Positions 5,319-23,645 of a stretch of DNA of 25,415 nt are shown piece by piece (within the stretch, counting starts at the first letter, position 1; the number at the start of each line of letters is the position of its first letter). This stretch comes from a virus. Where the stretch lies: positions 1 through 25,415 of the IMG/VR virus record IMGVR_UViG_3300025030_000389; one strand, given 5' to 3'. Both the position numbers and the translations under genes were made by a program. Under the pieces are notes generated by a model. It ran no database searches, was not told the origin of the DNA, and saw only the letters and a list, made by a program, of their open reading frames with translations.

Positions 5319-6392
5319 TCAGGCCTCCAGGATCTTCCGCAGGTTGCAGGCGACCGCGCGCATCAGCAGCGGCGGCACGCTGTTCCCGATGCGGCTCATC
5401 CGGTCCTTGTACTCGCCGGTCAAGATGAAGTCGTCGGGGAACGAGGCGAACCGCATGGCCTCCGCGACGTGGATGAACCGCGGCTCGGCCCAATGCACGA
5501 ACGAGGAGAAGGAGTGGTCGCTGGCGCTCTTGACGATGGTCGGGCACGGCCGCTCCGGGTCGAGCTTCGCCAGGACGTTGAAGTGCGTCCCGCTCTCGTG
5601 CAGTGCGCTGGCGTTGTCGCCCGGCGGGATGGACTTCCACCACTCGACATACTTCTCCGCGATGTCCTTCTGCGGCACGGCCTCCCGCTGCTCGCGGGTG
5701 AGGCCGCGGACGGCCACCTTCGCGGGGATCGGCCAGGTCTTCGGCTCCGGGTGCGACGGCTCGAGCCCGAGGTCCTCCCGCACGCCGACGAAGATCACTC
5801 GCTCGCGGCTCTGCGGGACCCCGAAATACTTCGCGTTGAGGAGGCGCACGGCCACGCGATACCCGGCCTTCTTGAGCTCCTCCAGGATCTCCACGAAGAG
5901 CAGGCGCATCTTGCCTTTGACCATCCCGCTCACGTTCTCCATGACGAACGCCCGCGGCTTGAAGACGCCCAGGAGGCGGACGTATTCACGGAACAGGCCA
6001 TTGCGCGGATCGTCCGTCTGACGCCGGCCGGCGGTGCTGAAGCCCTGGCACGGCGGGGACCCGTCGAGGACGTCGAGCTGCCCGGGCACGAGGCCGGTGA
6101 GGTAAAGGGCCTCCTCGCCTTCGAGCTTGGTCACGTCGCCATGGTATACCTCGACGTCGGGGAAGTTGGCGCGCAGGCACTCCGCCGCGTTCGCGTCCCA
6201 TTCGACCGCCAGCAGCTCCCTGAAGCCCGCCATGGAGTAACCGAGGCTCGAGCCTCCGCACCCGGCGAACAGGGAGACCACGGTCGGCGCGTCGGCCTTC
6301 CGCGGCGCCACGTGGTCGGCCCACGCGGCCTCCAGATCGGCGGCATAGTCGCCGTGGTAGAAGAGGGCCGGGACCTCCATCGTCGCGCTCAT
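5319..6392 (-). CDS. DNA (cytosine-5) methyltransferase 1
   Basis: Transfers a methyl group from S-adenosylmethionine to C5 of cytosine in DNA. All main motifs are present in the 357 residues: motif I VVSLFAGCGGSSLGYSMAGF (about 38-57), motif IV DGSPPCQGFS with catalytic Cys115, motif VI FVMENVSG, motif VIII QSRERVIFVG (194-203) and motif X RIGNSVPP (334-341). The target-recognition region between VIII and X is short (about 130 residues). The start is placed at ATG 6392, which forms an ATGA overlap with the ParB-like gene upstream; an in-frame ATG at 6413 is less likely. It ends just before TerS. There is no restriction enzyme next to it, so protection of phage DNA from host enzymes, or marking it for packaging or gene control, is more likely than a restriction-modification pair. 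The recognition site is unknown. Confidence 0.95.
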   Translation of the reverse strand: MSATMEVPALFYHGDYAADLEAAWADHVAPRKADAPTVVSLFAGCGGSSLGYSMAGFRELLAVEWDANAAECLRANFPDVEVYHGDVTKLEGEEALYLTGLVPGQLDVLDGSPPCQGFSTAGRRQTDDPRNGLFREYVRLLGVFKPRAFVMENVSGMVKGKMRLLFVEILEELKKAGYRVAVRLLNAKYFGVPQSRERVIFVGVREDLGLEPSHPEPKTWPIPAKVAVRGLTREQREAVPQKDIAEKYVEWWKSIPPGDNASALHESGTHFNVLAKLDPERPCPTIVKSASDHSFSSFVHWAEPRFIHVAEAMRFASFPDDFILTGEYKDRMSRIGNSVPPLLMRAVACNLRKILEA

Positions 6393-6940
6393 CTCGGGAA
6401 CTCGAATCCGCACTCAGGGCACTTCGCCATGACCACGCCCTCCGCCAGGGTTTCATCGAGGAGCTTGAACTCCACGCGCGGCGGGGCGATCTGCGCCGCC
6501 AGGCCGGACAGGAGGCTCCCCACGGCCGCGCTCCGGTTGCGGAATGACGCGAGGAGGGAGGCCAGGCGCTCGCGGCGCACGCCGGCCAGCTGGCCCACGC
6601 GGTCGAAGGTCGCCACCACGACGCGGCCCTCCTCCTCCGACAGGTCCGTGACCAGGCACGGGACCTTCCGCTTCCCGGCCTGCTTCGCCCTCGCGTGGCC
6701 GTCGAGGATCTGGAACAGGCCGTCGCCGAGCGGGCGCACGATGACGGCCCCTGCGAAGCCGACCTTCTCCAGGATCCAGGCCAGCGCCGAGGTCTGCTCC
6801 TCCGGGTGCTCCCGCCAGTTCTCCGGGTGCGGCACGAGCTTGTCCGCTCGGATGCGGTCGAACCCGACGATCCGGTTCCGGAAGACCTTCTCGATCGTCT
6901 TCTCTACTGCCGCGGGAACTTCGCGCTGCATTGCGGGCAT
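6389..6940 (-). CDS. ParB/Srx-like protein A with Cys-pair tail
   Basis: The 183-residue protein shows the ParB N-terminal fold pattern: DKLVPHPENWREHP (about 32-45), a predicted helix, GAVIVRPLGDGLFQILDGHA (the GHxR-like box), then KVPCLVTDLSEEEGRVV. ParB/Srx-fold proteins bind nucleotide and often DNA; phage copies commonly sit beside DNA methyltransferases. The C-terminus ends in CPECGFEFPR, half a zinc ribbon. Its ATG at 6940 is preceded by a run of GGGAGG motifs at about 10 bases; GTG 6949 is an alternative but lies too close to that site. It overlaps the paralogue upstream by 37 bases and the methyltransferase downstream by an ATGA. There is no ParA partner, so plasmid-type partitioning is unlikely. 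Role not known. Confidence 0.82.
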   Translation of the reverse strand: MPAMQREVPAAVEKTIEKVFRNRIVGFDRIRADKLVPHPENWREHPEEQTSALAWILEKVGFAGAVIVRPLGDGLFQILDGHARAKQAGKRKVPCLVTDLSEEEGRVVVATFDRVGQLAGVRRERLASLLASFRNRSAAVGSLLSGLAAQIAPPRVEFKLLDETLAEGVVMAKCPECGFEFPR

Positions 6941-7485
6941 GTCAGGCACGCCTCCCTCCCCCCGCCCTTCGCGGGGATCTTGGCCCGGTCCACGACCTCG
7001 GCCACGGCCTCCAGCCGCATGTCCGCCAGCGCCTTGTCCACGGCGTCGACGCCGGTCGCGATCGAGCCAGCCAGGCCGGCCATCTTCGCGTGGTTCGTCT
7101 TCGCCATCGCGCTGATCGGGTCGTAGACCGTGAGGAGCTCGTCGGCCTCCTCGATCGACTCGATGTCCGTCAGGAGGATCGGCACCTCCTGATCCGGGTG
7201 ATGGGACTCCGCGATCTCCTGGCGCATGTGGCCGTCGACCAGCATCGGACGGTCCCTGTCGAGGACCAGCGTCGAGCCGTCCTCCAGCTCCACCGTCGCG
7301 CCAGCCTTCACCGTGATCGTGAGCGCGGCTCCGACGAATCCAATCGCATTGAGCAGCCCTTCCATCAGGTCCCGCTGGGCCGGCGGATGATCACGCCAAT
7401 TCCGCGGATTGGGGAGGAGCTCTCCCGCCTTCACGTTGATGAGACCGAGTATCCGGTCCCGGACCTCTCCCGACGCCTTCGCCAT
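6904..7485 (-). CDS. ParB/Srx-like protein B, paralogue of its neighbour
   Basis: 193 residues with the same layout as the next gene downstream: GELLPNPRNWRDHP near 20-33 matches DKLVPHPENWREHP in the neighbour, LVDGHMRQEIA is the GHxR box, EVPILLTDIESIEEADELL follows, and the tail CPQCSAKFPRQ mirrors CPECGFEFPR. An insertion (GATVELEDGSTLVLDRDRP) lengthens the middle. The two genes are therefore probably a tandem duplication that has diverged. The start ATG at 7485 has GGAGG 5 bases upstream, better than the longer frame starting at 7527. The stop is TAG. Function is unknown; the shared Cys-pair tails suggest that zinc binding or pairing of the two proteins matters. Confidence 0.82.
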   Translation of the reverse strand: MAKASGEVRDRILGLINVKAGELLPNPRNWRDHPPAQRDLMEGLLNAIGFVGAALTITVKAGATVELEDGSTLVLDRDRPMLVDGHMRQEIAESHHPDQEVPILLTDIESIEEADELLTVYDPISAMAKTNHAKMAGLAGSIATGVDAVDKALADMRLEAVAEVVDRAKIPAKGGGREACLTCPQCSAKFPRQ

Positions 7486-7652
7486 GACGCCTCCACGTTC
7501 GCGCCCGACCGCCCCGCCCTCCTGCACGGAAGACCGAAGCCTCCCGCATCCGCCGGGGTCGAGTCCGGCGCGGGAGGCTTCGGCGGAGGCTCCCGCAGAG
7601 AGATGGAGCCTCCTTCCACGGGAGTGCCATGGAGATTCGGGGCGCGCATCAT
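7431..7652 (-). CDS. Possible small Pro-rich ORF overlapping ParB-like B
   Basis: A 73-codon frame starts at ATG 7652, with GAGGGGG about 4 bases upstream, and overlaps the start of the ParB-like gene by 55 bases. The product would be Pro/Gly-rich (SLREPPPKPPAPDS) and basic at the end, with no known domain. Third-position GC is high in the first two thirds, which favours coding, but the same stretch contains two strong hairpins that could explain the base composition. If it is not a gene, the 210 bases between 7486 and 7696 are a structured leader for the ParB-methyltransferase genes. I do not recognise it. Confidence 0.35.
   Translation of the reverse strand: MMRAPNLHGTPVEGGSISLREPPPKPPAPDSTPADAGGFGLPCRRAGRSGANVEASWRRRRERSGTGYSVSST
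7534..7583 (-). repeat. Perfect 14-base inverted repeat hairpin
   Basis: Arms 7534-7547 and 7570-7583 (CCGAAGCCTCCCGC and its exact complement) enclose 22 bases that can pair further (CGCCGG with CCGGCG). There is no T tract, so it is not a classical terminator. It lies some 50-100 bases upstream of the ParB-like B start in the minus-strand transcript and could be an RNA structure, a protein-binding operator or a processing site. Confidence 0.6.
7585..7613 (-). repeat. Second hairpin, 9-base arms
   Basis: Arms GGAGGCTCC (7585-7593) and GGAGCCTCC (7605-7613) are exact complements with an 11-base loop. It sits two bases from the larger hairpin, giving two stacked stem-loops in the leader upstream of ParB-like B. 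The arms contain GGAGG, which in the minus-strand RNA would hide ribosome-site-like sequence. Confidence 0.5.
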
Positions 7653-10047: not shown

Positions 10048-10262
10048 CAGGACGCGCTCCGGTTCGGATTGCAGTAGGGGCACAACATCGCATTGTGATG
10101 GTTGTCCCCGCTCGGGCGGAACTGCAAGTCGAACAGGCTGTCCACCCGGTAGGCCAGCGCGAGGAGGAGCGCCTTCTCGCGCTCCGTCGTCGAGGATGTC
10201 CGTGCGAACGTCCTCGCCTCCTCTGCCAGCTCCCTCGAGTCCATCGTCATGAAATCCGTCAC
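10047..10262 (-). CDS. Small CPYC-tailed protein, 71 aa
   Basis: Starts at GTG 10262 in a GTGA overlap with the methyltransferase upstream, with GGAGG 7 bases before it. The body is a charged helix (SRELAEEARTFARTSSTTER) followed by ALLLALAYRVDSLFDLQF, and the end is HHNAMLCPYCNPNR, a histidine-cysteine cluster that could bind a metal. It resembles a half zinc ribbon that would need a partner. No known family. It ends in a TGATG overlap with the HTH gene. Confidence 0.6.
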   Translation of the reverse strand: MTDFMTMDSRELAEEARTFARTSSTTEREKALLLALAYRVDSLFDLQFRPSGDNHHNAMLCPYCNPNRSAS

Positions 10263-11683
10263 GCCGCGGCCTCCATCTCCATCGCAAAGTTGGCGCGGAC
10301 CAGCGCGGCCGCGAAATGCGGCGGCACGCTGTTCCCCGCCAGGCGGACCATCGTCTTCCTGGTCATCGGCTTCCCGTCGACGTCCGTCGCGATGACGTAG
10401 TCCTCCGGGAAGCCCTGGGCACGGTAGAGCTCGCGCGGCTCCAGCATCCGCATGCCGATGTCGGCGACCTCGTGCGCGACCCCGTCCACCATCACGAGGT
10501 TGAACCTGTCCTTCGTCGTGACGGTCGGCAGCGGCAGGTCGAGCCGGAGGTTCTGGTCGGTCCCATAGTAGGCCGTCAGGAAGGCCGCGGACTCCTCCTC
10601 CCGCCCGCCCGTCAGGCCCACCTCGACGAGCGCGTGATGGTCGATCGCGGTCACGGTGTCCATCGGCAGGTCGAGCTGCTTCCCGCTCCCCTCGTGGCCC
10701 CCGTAGTGCTTGACCAGCAGGGCGGCCGCGACGGCGAACTTCTCCCCACCGGAGACCACGGTCCCGAGCGGCCTGTGCAGGTCGGGCACCCGCGGCGCCT
10801 GCCCCTCGCGTTCCCCGTACCCTACTTGGACCAGGGTCGGCCCCACGACGCCCCCGGCTCCGCGCACGAGGAACGGCTTCTCCGCGAGGAGGACGTGCTT
10901 CCACACGCCACGAGCGATCCGCCGGAGGGTCTTCTCCGCGAGGGGCCTGTTCACATCGAACCCGAGGCTCTTCGCCTGCGCCCGGGTCAGGAAGATCGAC
11001 GGGCACGGCAGACTCCAATCGATGCACTCCGCCGCGGTGCGGTACGCGAGGAGGGAAGGGCCGTGGGTCGGCGCCGGCCACGCGATCGGCAGGCCGTCGC
11101 GGCGCGCCACCACGAACAGGCGCTTGCGCATCGTCGGCGCCCCGTAGTCGCAGGCGGACAAGAGGCGCCACTCGACCGCGTACCCGAAGGCCCGCAGGGC
11201 GGCGACCCACTTGCGGAAAGTCTCGCCCTTCCGCTCCGGGATCGGCCTGTCGTCGGCGTCGAGCGGGCCCCAATCCCGGAACTCCGCGACGTTCTCCAGG
11301 ACGATCACGCGCGGCCCCACGTCCCGCGCCCACCTGACCACGACCCAGGCCAGCGCGCGGACCCGCTTCGAGACAGGCGCGGCACCCTTCGCCCGCGAGA
11401 AGTGCCGGCAGTCCGGGGACGCCCACAGAAGGCCGACACGCCGGCCGCACACGGCGCAACGCGGGGCCACCTCCAGCACGTCGGAGCGGTAATGGATCGT
11501 GTCCGGGTGGTTGCGCTCGTGGAGGGACACGGCTGCGGCGTCGTGGTTCACGGCCACGTCGGGCCCGCGCCCGAGCGCCCACTTGATCCCCTCGCTGGCG
11601 CCGCCTCCGCCCGCGAACAGGTCCACGACGATCTCCCCCGGCTCGAGCTCCACCGGCGGCGGGAACACGATCGGCGCGCTCAT
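10259..11683 (-). CDS. DNA (cytosine-5) methyltransferase 2, SPDC variant
   Basis: C5-cytosine methyltransferase of 474 residues. Motif I VVDLFAGGGGASEG (19-32), motif VI VLENVAEF (128-135), motif VIII APTMRKRLFVVARRDG (about 182-197) and motif X LAGNSVPPHF near 448-457 are clear. The catalytic loop reads WASPDCRHFSRAKG, so the usual Pro-Cys is Asp-Cys (Cys92); phage enzymes with SPDC are known, from memory, so it is probably active. A CAVC pair stands just before the loop. The region between VIII and X is about 250 residues, far larger than in the first enzyme, so its target differs. The ATG at 11683 forms an ATGA overlap with the zinc finger gene. Confidence 0.93.
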   Translation of the reverse strand: MSAPIVFPPPVELEPGEIVVDLFAGGGGASEGIKWALGRGPDVAVNHDAAAVSLHERNHPDTIHYRSDVLEVAPRCAVCGRRVGLLWASPDCRHFSRAKGAAPVSKRVRALAWVVVRWARDVGPRVIVLENVAEFRDWGPLDADDRPIPERKGETFRKWVAALRAFGYAVEWRLLSACDYGAPTMRKRLFVVARRDGLPIAWPAPTHGPSLLAYRTAAECIDWSLPCPSIFLTRAQAKSLGFDVNRPLAEKTLRRIARGVWKHVLLAEKPFLVRGAGGVVGPTLVQVGYGEREGQAPRVPDLHRPLGTVVSGGEKFAVAAALLVKHYGGHEGSGKQLDLPMDTVTAIDHHALVEVGLTGGREEESAAFLTAYYGTDQNLRLDLPLPTVTTKDRFNLVMVDGVAHEVADIGMRMLEPRELYRAQGFPEDYVIATDVDGKPMTRKTMVRLAGNSVPPHFAAALVRANFAMEMEAAA

Positions 11684-12255
11684 CGGAGGTTCTCCGCGGC
11701 GGCTGGCGGGTCGAACAAGCCGTCCCCCGCGGCGGCCGCGATCGCCTCCACGGCGCACCCGCCCAGGCACAAGACGCGGACCTCCTGCGCCTCGAACCCC
11801 CATCGGACGGCGAGGCGCTTCTCCCCGCCGCACGCCGGGCACCTGTAGAGCGCGTCGGCATCGAGGCCCTCCAGCGGCAGGACGCGAGGAGCGGGCCTCT
11901 TGCAGCCGTCGTGCTCCTCGTCCGATCGGTTCAGGCAGTCCGGATCGCCCACGGGACATCCGGGATCCCCCTCGCCGCCGGTCAGGAGATGCTCCACGAG
12001 GCCGGCCTGATCATCGAGCGCGTCGGCCTTCTCGTGCAGCACCAGCTCGTCGACCGGCCACCCCTCTTCGAGGCCTGTCCTGACGGCGTCCGCCATCTCC
12101 CTGGCCATGTCCACGAGGCGCCCGCCCTCGCGGAACAACGGCGTCCGCGTGAAGTCATGGTCCGCGGCCATCTCCATTCCACAGCGCCCGCATGTGTTCC
12201 GGTACAGCGCCCGTTCATGCTCATGCCCATCGTCCGGCGAAGCCTGGAATGACAT
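11680..12255 (-). CDS. CHC2-like zinc finger protein, 191 aa
   Basis: Two metal-binding regions are visible: CGRCGMEMAADH near the N-terminus (about 22-33) and a C-terminal YRCPACGGEKRLAV then VLCLGGCAVEAIAAA, ending GDGLFDPP. The second has the C..C (about 20 residues) C...C spacing and the following helix seen in primase-type CHC2 zinc fingers of phage and plasmid replication proteins. There is no TOPRIM or helicase domain, so it is not a full primase; a nucleic-acid-binding accessory is more likely. A middle part has a further four Cys (CPVGDPDC, C..). ATG 12255 has GAGG about 9 bases upstream. It opens the methyltransferase operon, behind the conserved leader element. Confidence 0.65.
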   Translation of the reverse strand: MSFQASPDDGHEHERALYRNTCGRCGMEMAADHDFTRTPLFREGGRLVDMAREMADAVRTGLEEGWPVDELVLHEKADALDDQAGLVEHLLTGGEGDPGCPVGDPDCLNRSDEEHDGCKRPAPRVLPLEGLDADALYRCPACGGEKRLAVRWGFEAQEVRVLCLGGCAVEAIAAAAGDGLFDPPAAAENLR

Positions 12256-12318
12256 CGGTTCCGTTCCTCATCGCAGCGTCCGGACGGCGGCTCCCGACGC
12301 GCGCCCGGCCTCCCCTGT

Positions 12319-12348
12319 TTCAGCGCCCGCCCCGGCAGGTTCCTTCAG
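12319..12348 (-). promoter_or_regulatory. Leader element, copy A
   Basis: On the minus strand this reads CTGAAGGAAC, ten variable bases, then GGGCGCTGAA, followed by ACAGG. The same two 10-mers with the same 10-base spacing occur at 17344-17373. It lies in the 230-base gap 12256-12485, between a terminator-like hairpin and the start of the CHC2-like gene. Could be an operator, a promoter for a phage-encoded factor or an RNA element. Confidence 0.6.
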
Positions 12349-12379
12349 GGATTTTCAACGGCCCCGGACGGAAATGGAA

Positions 12380-12408
12380 GGGCCGGCCACAATGCGGATG
12401 GCCGGCCC
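12380..12408 (-). terminator. Probable terminator hairpin
   Basis: A perfect 10-base inverted repeat (GGGCCGGCCA, 9-base loop, TGGCCGGCCC) followed on the minus strand by TTCCATTT, a weak T-rich tail. It sits downstream of the gene ending at 12486 and just upstream of leader element A, so it would end the preceding transcript. The stem is nearly symmetric and could also act from the plus strand, but no plus-strand gene needs it. A smaller CCCCG-CGGGG hairpin lies at about 12449-12462. Confidence 0.6.
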
Positions 12409-12485
12409 CGATCGGGTCTGAAGTTCCGTTGTCGGAGAAGAGACATGGCCCCGGCTTCGGGGTCGCGCGGGTACGTTCGGCGGCC

Positions 12486-13100
12486 CTACTTCGCGTCCCT
12501 CTTCGGCCACGCCGGCAGCCCGACGTCCTTCACGACCATCGCGGCCATGAAGGCTTCCACGCCGCCCCACGGCTCAGGATCGTTACCCTTCACCGCCGCC
12601 GCGGCCGCGACGGCTTCGACCAGGCCGTTCCCCACGGACGGCAGCTGGCCCAGGAGGGAGGCCACGCACGAGGCGGCCGTCGAAGGCCGGATCCCGCCGC
12701 GGGTCAGGGCGGCGAAGGCGCGCAGGGCGTCCCCCGCGGGAAACCCGAACTTGGACGCGAGGGGAGGGAGGACCCGCATCGCACCGGCCACCTCGCCAGC
12801 GTCGGCCACCGACAGCGCCAGCAGCGCGGCATGCAGTTGGGTCCCGACCAGAGGGGCGGCGAGGTCGGCCACCTTTCCGAGGAGCATAGCCGCCCGTTCC
12901 AGCGCCTCCGCGTCCGCGGCTCCCGCATTGTCGAGGCCCTCATTCATCTCGTTCTCGTCGAAGAAACCGCCCGCCATCCTGATCGCCCTCCTCGCCAGCT
13001 CCATCGGGTCGTCCACCTTCAACAGGTAGCACTCGGAACAGTATACCATGCCACAGTCTGTCTCCATCGAGAGGCTACGGCAGAAGTCGCAAAAAATCAT
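12486..13100 (-). CDS. Cys-rich N-terminus, Ala-rich helical protein, 204 aa
   Basis: Begins MIFCDFCRSLSMETDCGMVY then CSECYLLK, giving Cys at 4, 7, 16, 21 and 24: a compact zinc-binding knuckle. The rest is a mostly alpha-helical Ala/Leu-rich domain (ALERAAMLLGKVADLAAPLV and similar). No family recognised; a small DNA- or protein-binding factor is possible. The chosen ATG at 13100 lies inside the 3' arm of a 19-bp perfect hairpin, with only GGGG upstream as ribosome site, so its translation is probably low or controlled. The next in-frame ATG (13067) would remove the first Cys pair and has no ribosome site. It is the last gene before the terminator at 12380. Confidence 0.7.
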   Translation of the reverse strand: MIFCDFCRSLSMETDCGMVYCSECYLLKVDDPMELARRAIRMAGGFFDENEMNEGLDNAGAADAEALERAAMLLGKVADLAAPLVGTQLHAALLALSVADAGEVAGAMRVLPPLASKFGFPAGDALRAFAALTRGGIRPSTAASCVASLLGQLPSVGNGLVEAVAAAAAVKGNDPEPWGGVEAFMAAMVVKDVGLPAWPKRDAK

Positions 13101-13218
13101 CGTCCCCACCATATGGCAACGGGGACGATGATTTTTTGCATTCTTGAGCGACCAGCCCGACACGGACCCGCCTCAGGATCTCCTCAGTCAGACCACAGTC
13201 TGGGCAGGCCTTCGGCAC
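13075..13218 (-). CDS. Possible 47-aa zinc knuckle ORF spanning the hairpin
   Basis: GTG 13218 starts two bases after the TGA of the upstream gene; the frame gives VPKACPDCGLTEEILRRVRV and continues through the whole 13089-13139 hairpin to a TAG at 13075-13077. CPDCG is a good half zinc knuckle and the first 25 residues look natural, but there is no clear ribosome site and the end is low-quality. If real, ribosomes translating it would melt the hairpin and expose the start of the next gene, like a leader peptide. Confidence 0.35.
   Translation of the reverse strand: MPKACPDCGLTEEILRRVRVGLVAQECKKSSSPLPYGGDDDFLRLLP
13089..13139. repeat. 19-bp perfect inverted repeat, bidirectional terminator-like
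   Basis: Arms 13089-13107 and 13121-13139 (GCAAAAAATCATCGTCCCC and its exact complement) with a 13-base loop containing CATATG. Each strand has an A6 tract, a GC-rich stem and a T6 tract, the layout of an intrinsic terminator working both ways. On the minus strand the ATG of the 204-aa gene lies in the 3' arm just before the T tract. It is by far the most AT-rich short stretch in the neighbourhood. Confidence 0.85.
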
Positions 13219-13219
13219 C

Positions 13220-13711
13220 TCAGTCCGGCGTCCAGATCGGCGCGCCAGCCCCGGCCACCAGGAGGCTCGCCGCGGCCGACGGTTTCCGCCGGAAGAGCAT
13301 GTTCCCGAGCTTCACGCCCTCGTCCCCGTACCGCTCAGCGAAGACGATCCGCATCATCGGCTCGAACTGCTCAGGCGGCAGCACGGACAGCACCGTGGCC
13401 ACCGTTTCGAACTCGTCACGGGTCAGCGCGCGGGCGGCCTTCGTCTTCGGCTTCTCCGCCACGGGCTCGGCGCGCTTGGACCACGCGACCTTCCGCTCCT
13501 CGCGTCCCTTCGCCCTGGCGGCGGCGCGCCGGGCGGCACGGCTCATCGGCGGCTTCTCGATCTCGGCCCGCAGCTGGCCGGCCTTCCCGCGCACGGCCTC
13601 CGCGGCGGCGTCCTCCTCCGGCACGTCCACGGGCGGCTCCGCCAGCGCGGCCGCACCGCCTCCGACCAGGATGATCCCGCTGTCCGTCTTCCGTTCCATC
13701 GTCTCGTTCAC
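13220..13711 (-). CDS. Hypothetical protein, 163 aa
   Basis: No family recognised. The first ~60 residues are Gly/Ala/Glu-rich and probably disordered; residues 55-95 are strongly basic (RAARRAAARAKGREERKVAW) and may bind nucleic acid; the C-terminal ~65 residues look folded (LTRDEFETVATVLSVLPPEQ). Start is GTG 13711, with GGGAGG 11 bases upstream; ATG 13699 is an alternative without a close ribosome site. It is followed closely by the small zinc-knuckle frame and the hairpin. Confidence 0.6.
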   Translation of the reverse strand: MNETMERKTDSGIILVGGGAAALAEPPVDVPEEDAAAEAVRGKAGQLRAEIEKPPMSRAARRAAARAKGREERKVAWSKRAEPVAEKPKTKAARALTRDEFETVATVLSVLPPEQFEPMMRIVFAERYGDEGVKLGNMLFRRKPSAAASLLVAGAGAPIWTPD

Positions 13712-18506: not shown

Positions 18507-18724
18507 GGACGGCGCTCCTTCACGGGCATCGCCATCAGCATCGCGGCGACCTCGGCCCCGGTCGGCAGGCCCAGGCTCCTCGCGATCTCCTCGCCCGACA
18601 TCGGCTTCCTCGCGAAGCGGACGTACGCCTCATGGGCCGCCTCTTCACGCGCCTCGGCCTCGCGGATCTCGGCGCCCTCGCCAAGTCCGAAGACCCCGCC
18701 CTTCGTCACGCTGTCCCCGCTCAT
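18503..18724 (-). CDS. Hypothetical protein, 73 aa
   Basis: ATG 18724 with GAGGAG 6 bases upstream and ATGA overlaps on both sides. A charged helix (AEIREAEAREEAAHEAYVRF) is followed by PMSGEEIARSLGLPTGAEVA, which could be a small HTH-like turn. No known family; DNA binding is possible but weakly supported. Confidence 0.55.
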   Translation of the reverse strand: MSGDSVTKGGVFGLGEGAEIREAEAREEAAHEAYVRFARKPMSGEEIARSLGLPTGAEVAAMLMAMPVKERRP

Positions 18725-19074
18725 CGCCGGCTCCTCGCCCGGGCGCCCTTGCGCCACGTCGATTCGATCTCGGGGTCCTCGTGGTTGCCGTAGTCCACCA
18801 CGACCAGGACGCCCGTCGATTCCCTCGACAGGGCCTCCGCGCACGTTTCCGCGGTCGGCCGGTTCGCCGCGCAGGCGACCGGCTTCGCTTCGCCTTCCAC
18901 CTCGCCGCCAACGTCGGCGGAGAAGATCCTGAACCTCATCAGCATGCTCGCTGCTCCCATCCGTTCGTTCCTCCTGCAGTCGGAGCACAAGGCCTTCCCG
19001 CCCCGGCTCCACATGAACCCGTTCCATCCGCAGCGCGGGCATGTCCCCGCGCCCTCGAACGCCCAGCCCTCCAT
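18721..19074 (-). CDS. Zinc-ribbon protein, 117 aa
   Basis: The N-terminus has CPRCGWNGFMWSRGGKALCSDC (residues 12-33), a four-Cys zinc ribbon typical of small phage nucleic-acid-binding proteins. The second half (from about residue 44) has RFRIFSADVGGEVEGEAKPV and VLVVVDYGNHEDPEIES and may be a separate domain. ATG 19074 is used because GGGAGG lies 11 bases upstream; an inner ATG at 18945 with GGGAG could start a second, shorter product without the ribbon. It overlaps the next gene by ATGA. Confidence 0.65.
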   Translation of the reverse strand: MEGWAFEGAGTCPRCGWNGFMWSRGGKALCSDCRRNERMGAASMLMRFRIFSADVGGEVEGEAKPVACAANRPTAETCAEALSRESTGVLVVVDYGNHEDPEIESTWRKGARARSRR

Positions 19075-21067: not shown

Positions 21068-21781
21068 TCACCCCTCATCGGGACGCGAGGGAGGGGTTTG
21101 GACAGGGCACAGCGTCCCGACCTCGCCGCCCGGATCGACGATGTGCTCGGACGGCAGGCAACCGCACCAGGCGCACGGCCCCAGGATCGCATCGTCCTCG
21201 GCGTCGTCGCCGAGCACGGGACGCGAGGGAGGGGAAGATTCGCACCCGAGCAGCAGCGGCGTCCCATCGGGTGCCCGTTCGTGGTACCTCATGGGCACGG
21301 GCTCGTCGAGCAGGTCGTCGCCCGTCCGCACCCGCCGGCCCGACAGGATCCGCAGCAGGTTCGTCTTCATCTCATGGTCAATGTCGAGCCGCTGGACGAC
21401 CTCGACGGCCTCGCTGACCTGCTCGAACCGCCGGGCCTCCCCGGAACCCCAGGCCGCCGCCTCCTCGCGGCTGTCGAACCCGCCCCGCTCGGCCAGGACC
21501 AGGAGCTTGCCGTCGCCGATGGGCAGTTGTACCTGGCACCGGAACCGACCGAAGCCGCCCTCGAGATCCTCCGCCGAAGCCCAGAAGGGCCCGACCACCT
21601 TCGGCCTGGGCTGGCCGTCAGCCCCGAACTCCTGGACCTCGGTTTGGTCGAACCGTCGATAGTCGCGCCCGAGCTGCGCGACCGCCGCTCCCCTAGCCGG
21701 GAATGCGAGGATCGTCCCCTTCTCGTCCACCGCCCACCGCTGCAGGCCGTACATCCACAGGCCCCACGCCTCGCCGTTCAT
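21068..21781 (-). CDS. Hypothetical protein, 237 aa
   Basis: ATG 21781 shares its A with the TGA of the upstream gene and has GGAGG 9 bases before it. The first ~120 residues are a beta-rich part with Trp, Arg and Gly (WMYGLQRWAVDEKGTILAFP); a helix region follows, and near the end CAWCGCLPSEH may bind a metal. Two ACGCGAGG words near its 3' end encode SPPSRP. Not recognised. Confidence 0.6.
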   Translation of the reverse strand: MNGEAWGLWMYGLQRWAVDEKGTILAFPARGAAVAQLGRDYRRFDQTEVQEFGADGQPRPKVVGPFWASAEDLEGGFGRFRCQVQLPIGDGKLLVLAERGGFDSREEAAAWGSGEARRFEQVSEAVEVVQRLDIDHEMKTNLLRILSGRRVRTGDDLLDEPVPMRYHERAPDGTPLLLGCESSPPSRPVLGDDAEDDAILGPCAWCGCLPSEHIVDPGGEVGTLCPVQTPPSRPDEG

Positions 21782-22257
21782 CAGCGTCGACCTCCGAACA
21801 GGATGCGCTTTGCGGCCTGCCAGATCGACTCCTGGACTGGCGGCAGCGGACGCGAAGGGGTGGCGAACCCGCGCGGCAGGACGTTCACCCCTTCGCGCAA
21901 TTCGACTTCGCGGGCCGCCTGCTTCAGTTCACGCCCCACGCCGGGCGCGCCCTTCACGGCCCACCTCATCCCGTCCGGCAGGTCTTCCGCCTTCGGCACG
22001 GCGCAGGCCGCCGGCGGGACGTGCGCCGGCTTGCTCGCGGCCACGTCCGCCCCGGGCACCCACCCGCTGAACGCGTCCACCACGTCGGCGGTGCAACCGG
22101 CGCACAGGTCCTTCCGCCCGCCGGTCGCGGCCCCGTGCGCTCCGTACATGAACTTGCCGCACTTGTCGCACCGCCACTTCGGAGGCAGGTCGCACGGCTT
22201 CAAGCACGACGTGCCATTCGAGATGAACGGGGTTCCATCCGTGCACTTGAGATTCAC
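21781..22257 (-). CDS. Zinc-ribbon protein, 158 aa
   Basis: GTG 22257 makes a GTGA overlap with the upstream gene and has GGAGG 6 bases before it. Cys pairs occur as CLKPC, CDKCG and CAGC within the first 60 residues, a treble or double zinc ribbon. The remaining part is Pro/Ala-rich with a basic end (IWQAAKRILFGGRR). Probably a nucleic-acid-binding accessory; no family named. Confidence 0.65.
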   Translation of the reverse strand: MNLKCTDGTPFISNGTSCLKPCDLPPKWRCDKCGKFMYGAHGAATGGRKDLCAGCTADVVDAFSGWVPGADVAASKPAHVPPAACAVPKAEDLPDGMRWAVKGAPGVGRELKQAAREVELREGVNVLPRGFATPSRPLPPVQESIWQAAKRILFGGRR

Positions 22258-22673: not shown

Positions 22674-22792
22674 CGCTCTCCCTTTCGTATCAGGTCCTTC
22701 GGCCACCACTTGAGCACTCTGGCCAGCAGCCTTTCCCAACGCCTCCGGGCCGCCCGCCGAACCCGGCATCGGCGGCGTCGCGCCGCCCTCAC
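22670..22792 (-). CDS. Possible Arg-rich mini-protein, 40 aa
   Basis: GTG 22792 forms a GTGA overlap with the XRE-type gene and the TGA overlaps the ATG of the next gene, so it exactly fills the space between two genes. The product is nearly half Arg/Lys (RAARRRRCRVRRAARRRWER) with a Trp pair (VLKWWPKDL) near the end. Third-position GC is better in this frame than in the overlapping one. It could bind RNA or DNA. The weak ribosome site keeps confidence low. Confidence 0.4.
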   Translation of the reverse strand: MRAARRRRCRVRRAARRRWERLLARVLKWWPKDLIRKGER

Positions 22793-23412
22793 CCCTTCGC
22801 CCTCCCGCCGGCCTTCTTCGTCGGGACGGTGCTTCTGAACAGCGTCGTCGCGGCCTCGGTCGGCACCGCCCGATCCGTGTCCCGCCACGCCGCGCCCGGC
22901 CTGGGCTCCTTCGTCGTCGGCCTCTCGTACAGGTCCTCCACGCGGCACCCGAGCTCCGCGGCAAACGCCTCGGGCTCGCCCACGTCCGGCAGGCGCGAGC
23001 CCGCCTCGTACCTCGCGATGGCGCTGCCCGACTTGCCCACGCGCTCCCCGAGCTCCGCCTGCGTCATGCAGGCCCGGACCCGCATCGCCGACAGGCCGGG
23101 CACCAGCCGCCGCACGGGGTTGACCGCCGGCTCCTCCGCCGGCACGTCCCTGGCCAGGCTCGGCCACTCGCCCTCCGACGCGAGGCAGCGGAAGCCGCCC
23201 AGGGCCAGCACGCGCCGGGCCTGCTCCGGGTTGCGGAACACGACCCCGCGCGTCCCCGCCAGCATCCCCGTCACGATCCGGTCTTCCCACATCGTCAGCG
23301 CGAGGACCTCTTCACGCGCCGGATGCCTCCACGTCGAAAAGCCCACGGCTACGCGCTTTCCGCGTCCTTCCGAATCAACCGGTATGACGCACGTCCCGGC
23401 TCCATTCTTCAT
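22789..23412 (-). CDS. XRE-family HTH protein with N-terminal domain, 207 aa
   Basis: Residues about 107-163 are a classical XRE/Cro-type helix-turn-helix: LSAMRVRACMTQAELGERVG, KSGSAIARYEAGSRLPDVGE, FAAELGCRVEDLYE. The N-terminal ~100 residues are beta-rich (KRVAVGFSTWRHPAREEVLA) and not assigned. The end is basic. It is the only recognisable classical transcription regulator in the early block and could control the promoter at the right edge. ATG 23412 has GGAGG 7 bases upstream and an ATGA overlap. Confidence 0.8.
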   Translation of the reverse strand: MKNGAGTCVIPVDSEGRGKRVAVGFSTWRHPAREEVLALTMWEDRIVTGMLAGTRGVVFRNPEQARRVLALGGFRCLASEGEWPSLARDVPAEEPAVNPVRRLVPGLSAMRVRACMTQAELGERVGKSGSAIARYEAGSRLPDVGEPEAFAAELGCRVEDLYERPTTKEPRPGAAWRDTDRAVPTEAATTLFRSTVPTKKAGGRAKG

Positions 23413-23645
23413 TCCATCCCCTCCGTATTCCCGGAACGGCACAACCGCGCCGTTTCCGAATCTTCGCCGGCCGCGGCAGCCTGGCCGGCCTCCCGCTCCT
23501 CGCGGCGCCGGCGGGCCTCCTCGCGGATCGCCGATACGGCCATCCACGTCCACCGGCAGACGTTCGTCACGGGGGGCGCCCCCGTGCCCCCCATTCCCCG
23601 TTGCAGGAACCGCGTGGTTGTCGCGTTTCTGGCATCCGTCTTCAT
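23409..23645 (-). CDS. Hypothetical protein, 78 aa
   Basis: ATG 23645 has AAGGAGG 7 bases upstream and an ATGA overlap with the Cys-rich gene. The product has a Thr/Gly-rich beginning, VCRWTWMAVSAIREEARRRR and an acidic end. A short coiled coil (EEARRRREEREAGQ) is likely. Not recognised. Confidence 0.55.
   Translation of the reverse strand: MKTDARNATTTRFLQRGMGGTGAPPVTNVCRWTWMAVSAIREEARRRREEREAGQAAAAGEDSETARLCRSGNTEGME

Follow-up and report, generated by a model that had tools for sequence, protein, structure and literature searches.

A perfect 19-bp hairpin near 13.1 kb of the phage record analysed here is best read as an intrinsic (Rho-independent) terminator inside an operon, a reading to which we give a probability of roughly 0.6. 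Such a terminator would be leaky, or overridden or antiterminated, and would lower or time expression downstream of 13.1 kb. The hairpin looks like a good example of an already known kind of signal, unusual mainly for covering a possible start codon. An earlier note on this DNA had called it terminator-like, a description that is well supported by its anatomy and by near-identical hairpins found at gene ends in other genomes.

The window comprises an entire IMG/VR virus record (25,415 bases), which is probably an incomplete genome, and has a GC content of 69.1%. Its predicted products include a portal protein, two C5-cytosine methylases, ParB-like proteins and a nucleoside 2-deoxyribosyltransferase-like protein, with a terminase as a probable further member. 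The two methylases are encoded at 5319-6413 and 10259-11959 in this one phage, and the first adjoins two ParB/methylase-like genes (6389-6949 and 6904-7527). Several small proteins, encoded at 18721-19074, 21781-22257 and 11680-12255, carry CxxC motifs that resemble zinc ribbons and match known families weakly or not at all. Eight clear genes were used to train a codon-bias map, which placed every convincing gene on the minus strand. Therefore, the hairpin lies inside one leftward operon. Plus-strand coding was rejected, the frames there scoring far lower for their length. The minus-strand genes are tightly packed, with frequent 4-nt ATGA/GTGA overlaps, and only about 7% of the window is free of genes. 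The hairpin sits at one of the few intergenic gaps, which is a gap only if the next gene starts at 13100. Near the high end of the contig, an HTH_3-type protein (22789-23553) is a candidate regulator of the operon. The features of the locus, in the order in which the minus strand is read, are these:

13220..13711, minus strand: upstream gene of 163 aa, whose stop codon lies 80 nt before the hairpin
13075..13218 (read from 13218 to 13075), minus strand: 47-codon CPDCG frame with a GTG start, one base past the stop codon of the 163-aa gene, and a TAG stop
13161..13163, minus strand: alternative in-frame GTG start (225 aa), upstream of the hairpin, with a Shine-Dalgarno sequence GAGG at a normal distance
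13097..13141, minus strand: 14-codon frame MQKIIVPVAIWWGR with its stop codon, spanning the hairpin, its end overlapping the 204-aa start as ATGA
13121..13139, minus strand: 5' arm in the minus-strand RNA, GCAAAAAATCATCGTCCCC, with the A6 tract
13108..13120, minus strand: loop of 13 nt, GTTGCCATATGGT, containing CCATATGG, which is able to form a small inner stem
13089..13107, minus strand: 3' arm, GGGGACGATGATTTTTTGC, made up of an 11-bp core GGGGACGATGA, the U6 tract and GC
13098..13100, minus strand: ATG of the 204-aa frame, with a weak, mostly paired Shine-Dalgarno sequence GGTGGGG just upstream
12486..13100, minus strand: 204-aa protein with the N-terminus MIFCDFC...YCSEC and a sub-threshold match to PhageMin_Tail as its only Pfam match
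12380..12408, minus strand: second hairpin, a perfect 10-bp stem followed by TTCCATTTCC, in the 230-nt gap (12256-12485) past the 204-aa gene

The geometry of the hairpin is as the earlier note described it. All 19 positions of the arms pair, across an intervening 13 nt, and the A6 (13091) and T6 (13132) tracts are unique, since the window contains no other run of A or T of at least six. Read along the minus strand, the hairpin runs A6, UCAUCGUCCCC, loop, GGGGACGAUGA, U6 and GCG. The loop also includes, at 13112, an in-frame ATG that has no Shine-Dalgarno sequence. This structure is far beyond chance. Among ten window-length sequences from a first-order Markov model, the maximum stem was 9-11 bp, compared with the 19 bp observed, and no match to an arm within 3 mismatches occurred in shuffled sequences. 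The minus-strand RNA has a predicted fold of -37.9 kcal/mol over 71 nt (z = -7.5), and the plus-strand RNA of the hairpin folds nearly as well. Within 959 kb of phage contigs (window included), this was the only perfect stem of at least 19 bp with a loop of at most 20 nt; the remaining stems of at least 12 bp with A/T tracts all came from contigs of 39-40% GC. No Rfam family was found at 13.1 kb, even at E = 1, and a tRNA search returned none.

The anatomy on the minus strand is that of a terminator, with an 11-bp core (7/11 G-C pairs) running directly into U6, a tract that also pairs with the upstream A6. The hairpin follows the stop codon of the 163-aa gene, and this same position falls inside the next gene if GTG 13163 is the start. 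Three of the six perfect stems in the window with at least 10 bp and loops of at most 40 nt are located at gaps (13089-13139, 12380-12408 and 7534-7583). The latter two have T-rich tails, which we counted in favour of termination.

The 204-aa gene thus has a hairpin at either end, an arrangement that an inserted cassette might show. At 7534-7613, two adjoining GC-rich hairpins with stems of 9 and 14 bp occupy the gap upstream of the gene starting at 7485. This pair folds at about -64 kcal/mol and is followed by TCTTCC, which also tails the 7534-7583 stem.

Further support came from a search of 257 Gb (257 billion bases) of genomes for ATCATCGTCCCC and GGGGACGATGAT separated by 3-30 nt. The exact arms were found at only 2 loci, where about 0.05 would be expected at random by our own estimate. 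Each forms an intergenic hairpin a short distance beyond a stop codon; one has A4/T5 tracts, and one is set between convergent genes. A plus-strand ORF in a Chloroflexi MAG ends about 30 nt ahead of the hairpin AAAATCATCGTCCCC...GGGGACGATGATTTTT. On a Prevotella contig, the hairpin follows one gene by about a dozen nt and precedes the end of a convergent gene.

If the hairpin is a terminator, polymerase leaving the 163-aa gene would pause on U6 while the GC-rich core folds, and a fraction would stop. Expression of the 204/225-aa gene and those beyond it would then be reduced, or would depend on the terminator being overridden, which could occur via phage antitermination or a close ribosome. 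Read-through RNA would start poorly at ATG 13100 because the stem contains that codon. Initiation may be at GTG 13163 instead, in which case the terminator would fall inside the opening ~75 nt of the coding sequence. In E. coli, terminators located up to 100 bp into a coding region are efficient, and lambda tR2, which in the construct of that study sits 30 bp past the start codon of the natural NinA site, works efficiently there (PMC4824070). Several points count against termination. The U tract is short, at 6 nt, and gives way to GCG, A-U pairs are frequent at the base of the core, and the 13-nt loop is long. A basic scan for terminators with loops of 3-8 nt did not pick up the hairpin. Neither a promoter nor an antitermination site was recognised in its vicinity, and the collections searched gave no relative in which the hairpin is conserved.

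The hairpin bears on where the downstream gene begins. As had been claimed, the ATG lies inside the 3' arm of the minus-strand RNA, the codon at 13100-13098 falling within 13089-13107. Its opening energy is 33.1 kcal/mol, compared with a mean of 12.4 (sd 4.8) and a maximum of 25.7 for 32 other starts. ATG 13100 is an outlier in this respect, and occlusion is strong if translation starts there. From this ATG the protein reads MIFCDFCRSLSMETDCGMVYCSEC..., with two CxxC pairs, and its N-terminus appears to resemble a zinc ribbon. If C4 and C7 of these zinc-ribbon-like pairs belong to the protein, the start would therefore be at or before 13100. The label Cys-rich that the protein had been given fits this N-terminus (C4, C7, C16, C21 and C24) but not the remainder. 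The AlphaFold model of the 204-aa protein is poor, with a mean pLDDT of 52 and values of about 33 over the first 30 residues.

Two elements of the locus had previously been missed, GTG 13163 and the 14-codon frame. GTG starts are common in this phage, and this one has the better Shine-Dalgarno energy (-8.1 versus -5.4 kcal/mol for ATG 13100) and opens at 18.0 kcal/mol. With GTG 13163 as the start, the hairpin falls inside the coding region, beginning 24 nt downstream. In codon bias, the eight codons of the 225-aa frame before the hairpin score 2.2, which is compatible with coding, and the 13 hairpin codons score -5.6, which is ambiguous to poor. Since GTG 13163 lies outside the hairpin and has the better Shine-Dalgarno sequence, a locked start is not established.

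These results also bear on the best-surviving alternative, that start-site occlusion is the main role of the hairpin, in the manner of T4 e, soc and I-TevI. ATG 13100 would be hidden in read-through RNA, and the only translated transcripts would be those beginning inside or past the 5' arm. The stem contains the ATG and part of its Shine-Dalgarno sequence, the opening energy given above is far from that of the 32 other starts, and there is precedent in T4 (PMC3014915, PMC2988022), where a start-site hairpin cuts lysozyme synthesis ~100-fold (PMC3014915). However, this scheme needs a promoter, and a scan limited to sigma-70-like promoters found none near 13.1 kb on the minus strand. Moreover, GTG 13163 offers a better ribosome site outside the stem, and occlusion does not require A6/U6 tracts. 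We consider occlusion as the main role unlikely. By analogy with T4, it may be a second effect of the terminator, if ATG 13100 is used.

Somewhat less likely still is a translation-coupled attenuator, in which translation of the 47-codon (or 14-codon) frame would open the hairpin, suppress termination and free the start, as in the pyrBI leader. The pyrBI terminator sits in a 135-bp leader gene (PMC4824070), and both small frames at the phage locus cross the hairpin. The path of the 47-codon frame through the stem is confirmed by its coordinates, and the proximity of its GTG to the upstream stop codon is in keeping with coupling. Its first 18 codons score 3.6 in codon bias, where real frames have a 5th percentile of 0.0 and a median of 12.3, and off frames a 95th percentile of about -2 to -4. 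This is borderline coding-like and near the low end of real frames, and the frame may be a real short gene. Conversely, its 21 hairpin codons have a log-odds score of -15.3, as in off or noncoding frames. Its ribosome site is poor at -3.2 kcal/mol (18/32 other starts reach -8 or better), and that of the 14-codon frame is weak at -5.0 kcal/mol, so that neither is a translated leader frame with a convincing ribosome site of its own. The 47-codon stop lies 23 nt past ATG 13100, from where re-initiation would have to step back by that distance, and neither frame has a codon run for obvious sensing. The ATGA overlap of the 14-codon frame is of a type that arises easily wherever genes begin with ATGA. 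Thus, the 47-codon frame does cross the stem, but its proposed role as the hairpin's opener finds little in its ribosome site, hairpin codons or stop position, and the attenuator as a whole is weak and not favoured.

An equally doubtful extension of the attenuator makes the hairpin both a terminator and a translation lock, where a coupled small frame must be translated for polymerase to pass and for ATG 13100 to be released. If this dual reading were true, it would mean that a phage zinc-ribbon gene is controlled at two levels in a high-GC host, and the double function would be a compact phage switch joining T4-type occlusion with pyrBI-type attenuation.

The hairpin could also be an RNase III site, where a long perfect duplex is cut and the upstream and downstream parts of the mRNA are separated. 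A 19-bp perfect RNA stem with a small inner stem, within an operon, is consistent with this. We regard it as improbable, as RNase III does not require A6/U6 tracts and the placement of the same arms at gene ends elsewhere points to termination.

Little more can be said for a template-switch by-product of replication, in which one arm was copied from the other without a selected role, or for an assembly error. No base of either arm is mismatched, one arm covers the gene's own first codons, and template switching is a documented origin of perfect RNA hairpins (PMC8794818). The hairpin also lacks relatives that would show age or conservation, none being found in viral, phage or genome collections. 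Relatives of the 204-aa protein were absent from viral contigs, phages and genomes, those of the 163-aa and 237-aa neighbours from viral contigs, a DNA match to the locus from phages, and the hairpin and its single arm from other viral contigs, in collections that may omit records very near the window. Nonetheless, a random event would be unlikely to yield tracts of the terminator type and a position at a gap, and further gaps have hairpins too, which makes this origin a poor explanation.

The methylase search returned 80 methylase loci, which were rejected as relatives of the locus, none sharing its neighbourhood. The terminase search returned one near-identical short contig that covers only the terminase-portal end and not the hairpin. 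This 4.6-kb virus contig (IMGVR_UViG_3300025121_000311) has a 100% terminase match and extends beyond the low end of the window into more head genes.

Finally, a DNA operator or cruciform bound by a phage protein is very improbable, and the earlier note's suggestion of a protein-bound site at the DNA level is unsupported: the palindrome is long and perfect and the phage encodes the HTH_3-type regulator, but the half-site has no further copy within 3 mismatches anywhere in the window, no promoter was recognised beside the hairpin, and 19-bp arms with a 13-bp spacer are unlike known HTH_3 operators.

An intrinsic terminator at 13.1 kb would probably act as a control point for the one long operon of this uncharacterised high-GC phage, and would present a clear clash of gene-start annotation with terminator prediction. 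If it is an ordinary in-operon terminator, it would have little importance past annotation.

Among known systems, the T4 e, soc, 49 and I-TevI hairpins hold the Shine-Dalgarno sequence and/or AUG within a helix that forms in a longer RNA (PMC3014915), a feature that the phage hairpin would share if translation starts at ATG 13100, but not if it starts at GTG 13163. Unlike T4 gene e and I-TevI, where a late promoter is found inside or adjoining the 5' strand, none was recognised at the phage hairpin, and its terminator-type A6/U6 tracts set it apart from the T4 start-site hairpins. Attenuators of the pyrBI type similarly have a small frame crossing a terminator ahead of a gene, whereas the phage locus has no good ribosome site, coding-like hairpin sequence, or identified sensing codons or pause site. 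Lambda tR2, like the proposed terminator, is located within a phage operon and close to a start codon. It differs in that no antitermination system or nut-like site was identified here and in that the candidate ATG is in the stem, and the phage is unrelated. The hairpins of the Chloroflexi MAG and the Prevotella contig have almost identical arms with adjoining A-rich and T-rich ends. They lie directly past stop codons, that of Prevotella between convergent genes, whereas the phage hairpin has co-directional genes on either side and covers part of one possible start. Considering that both loci are unrelated to the phage, the likeness of the arms shows the kind of signal and not descent.
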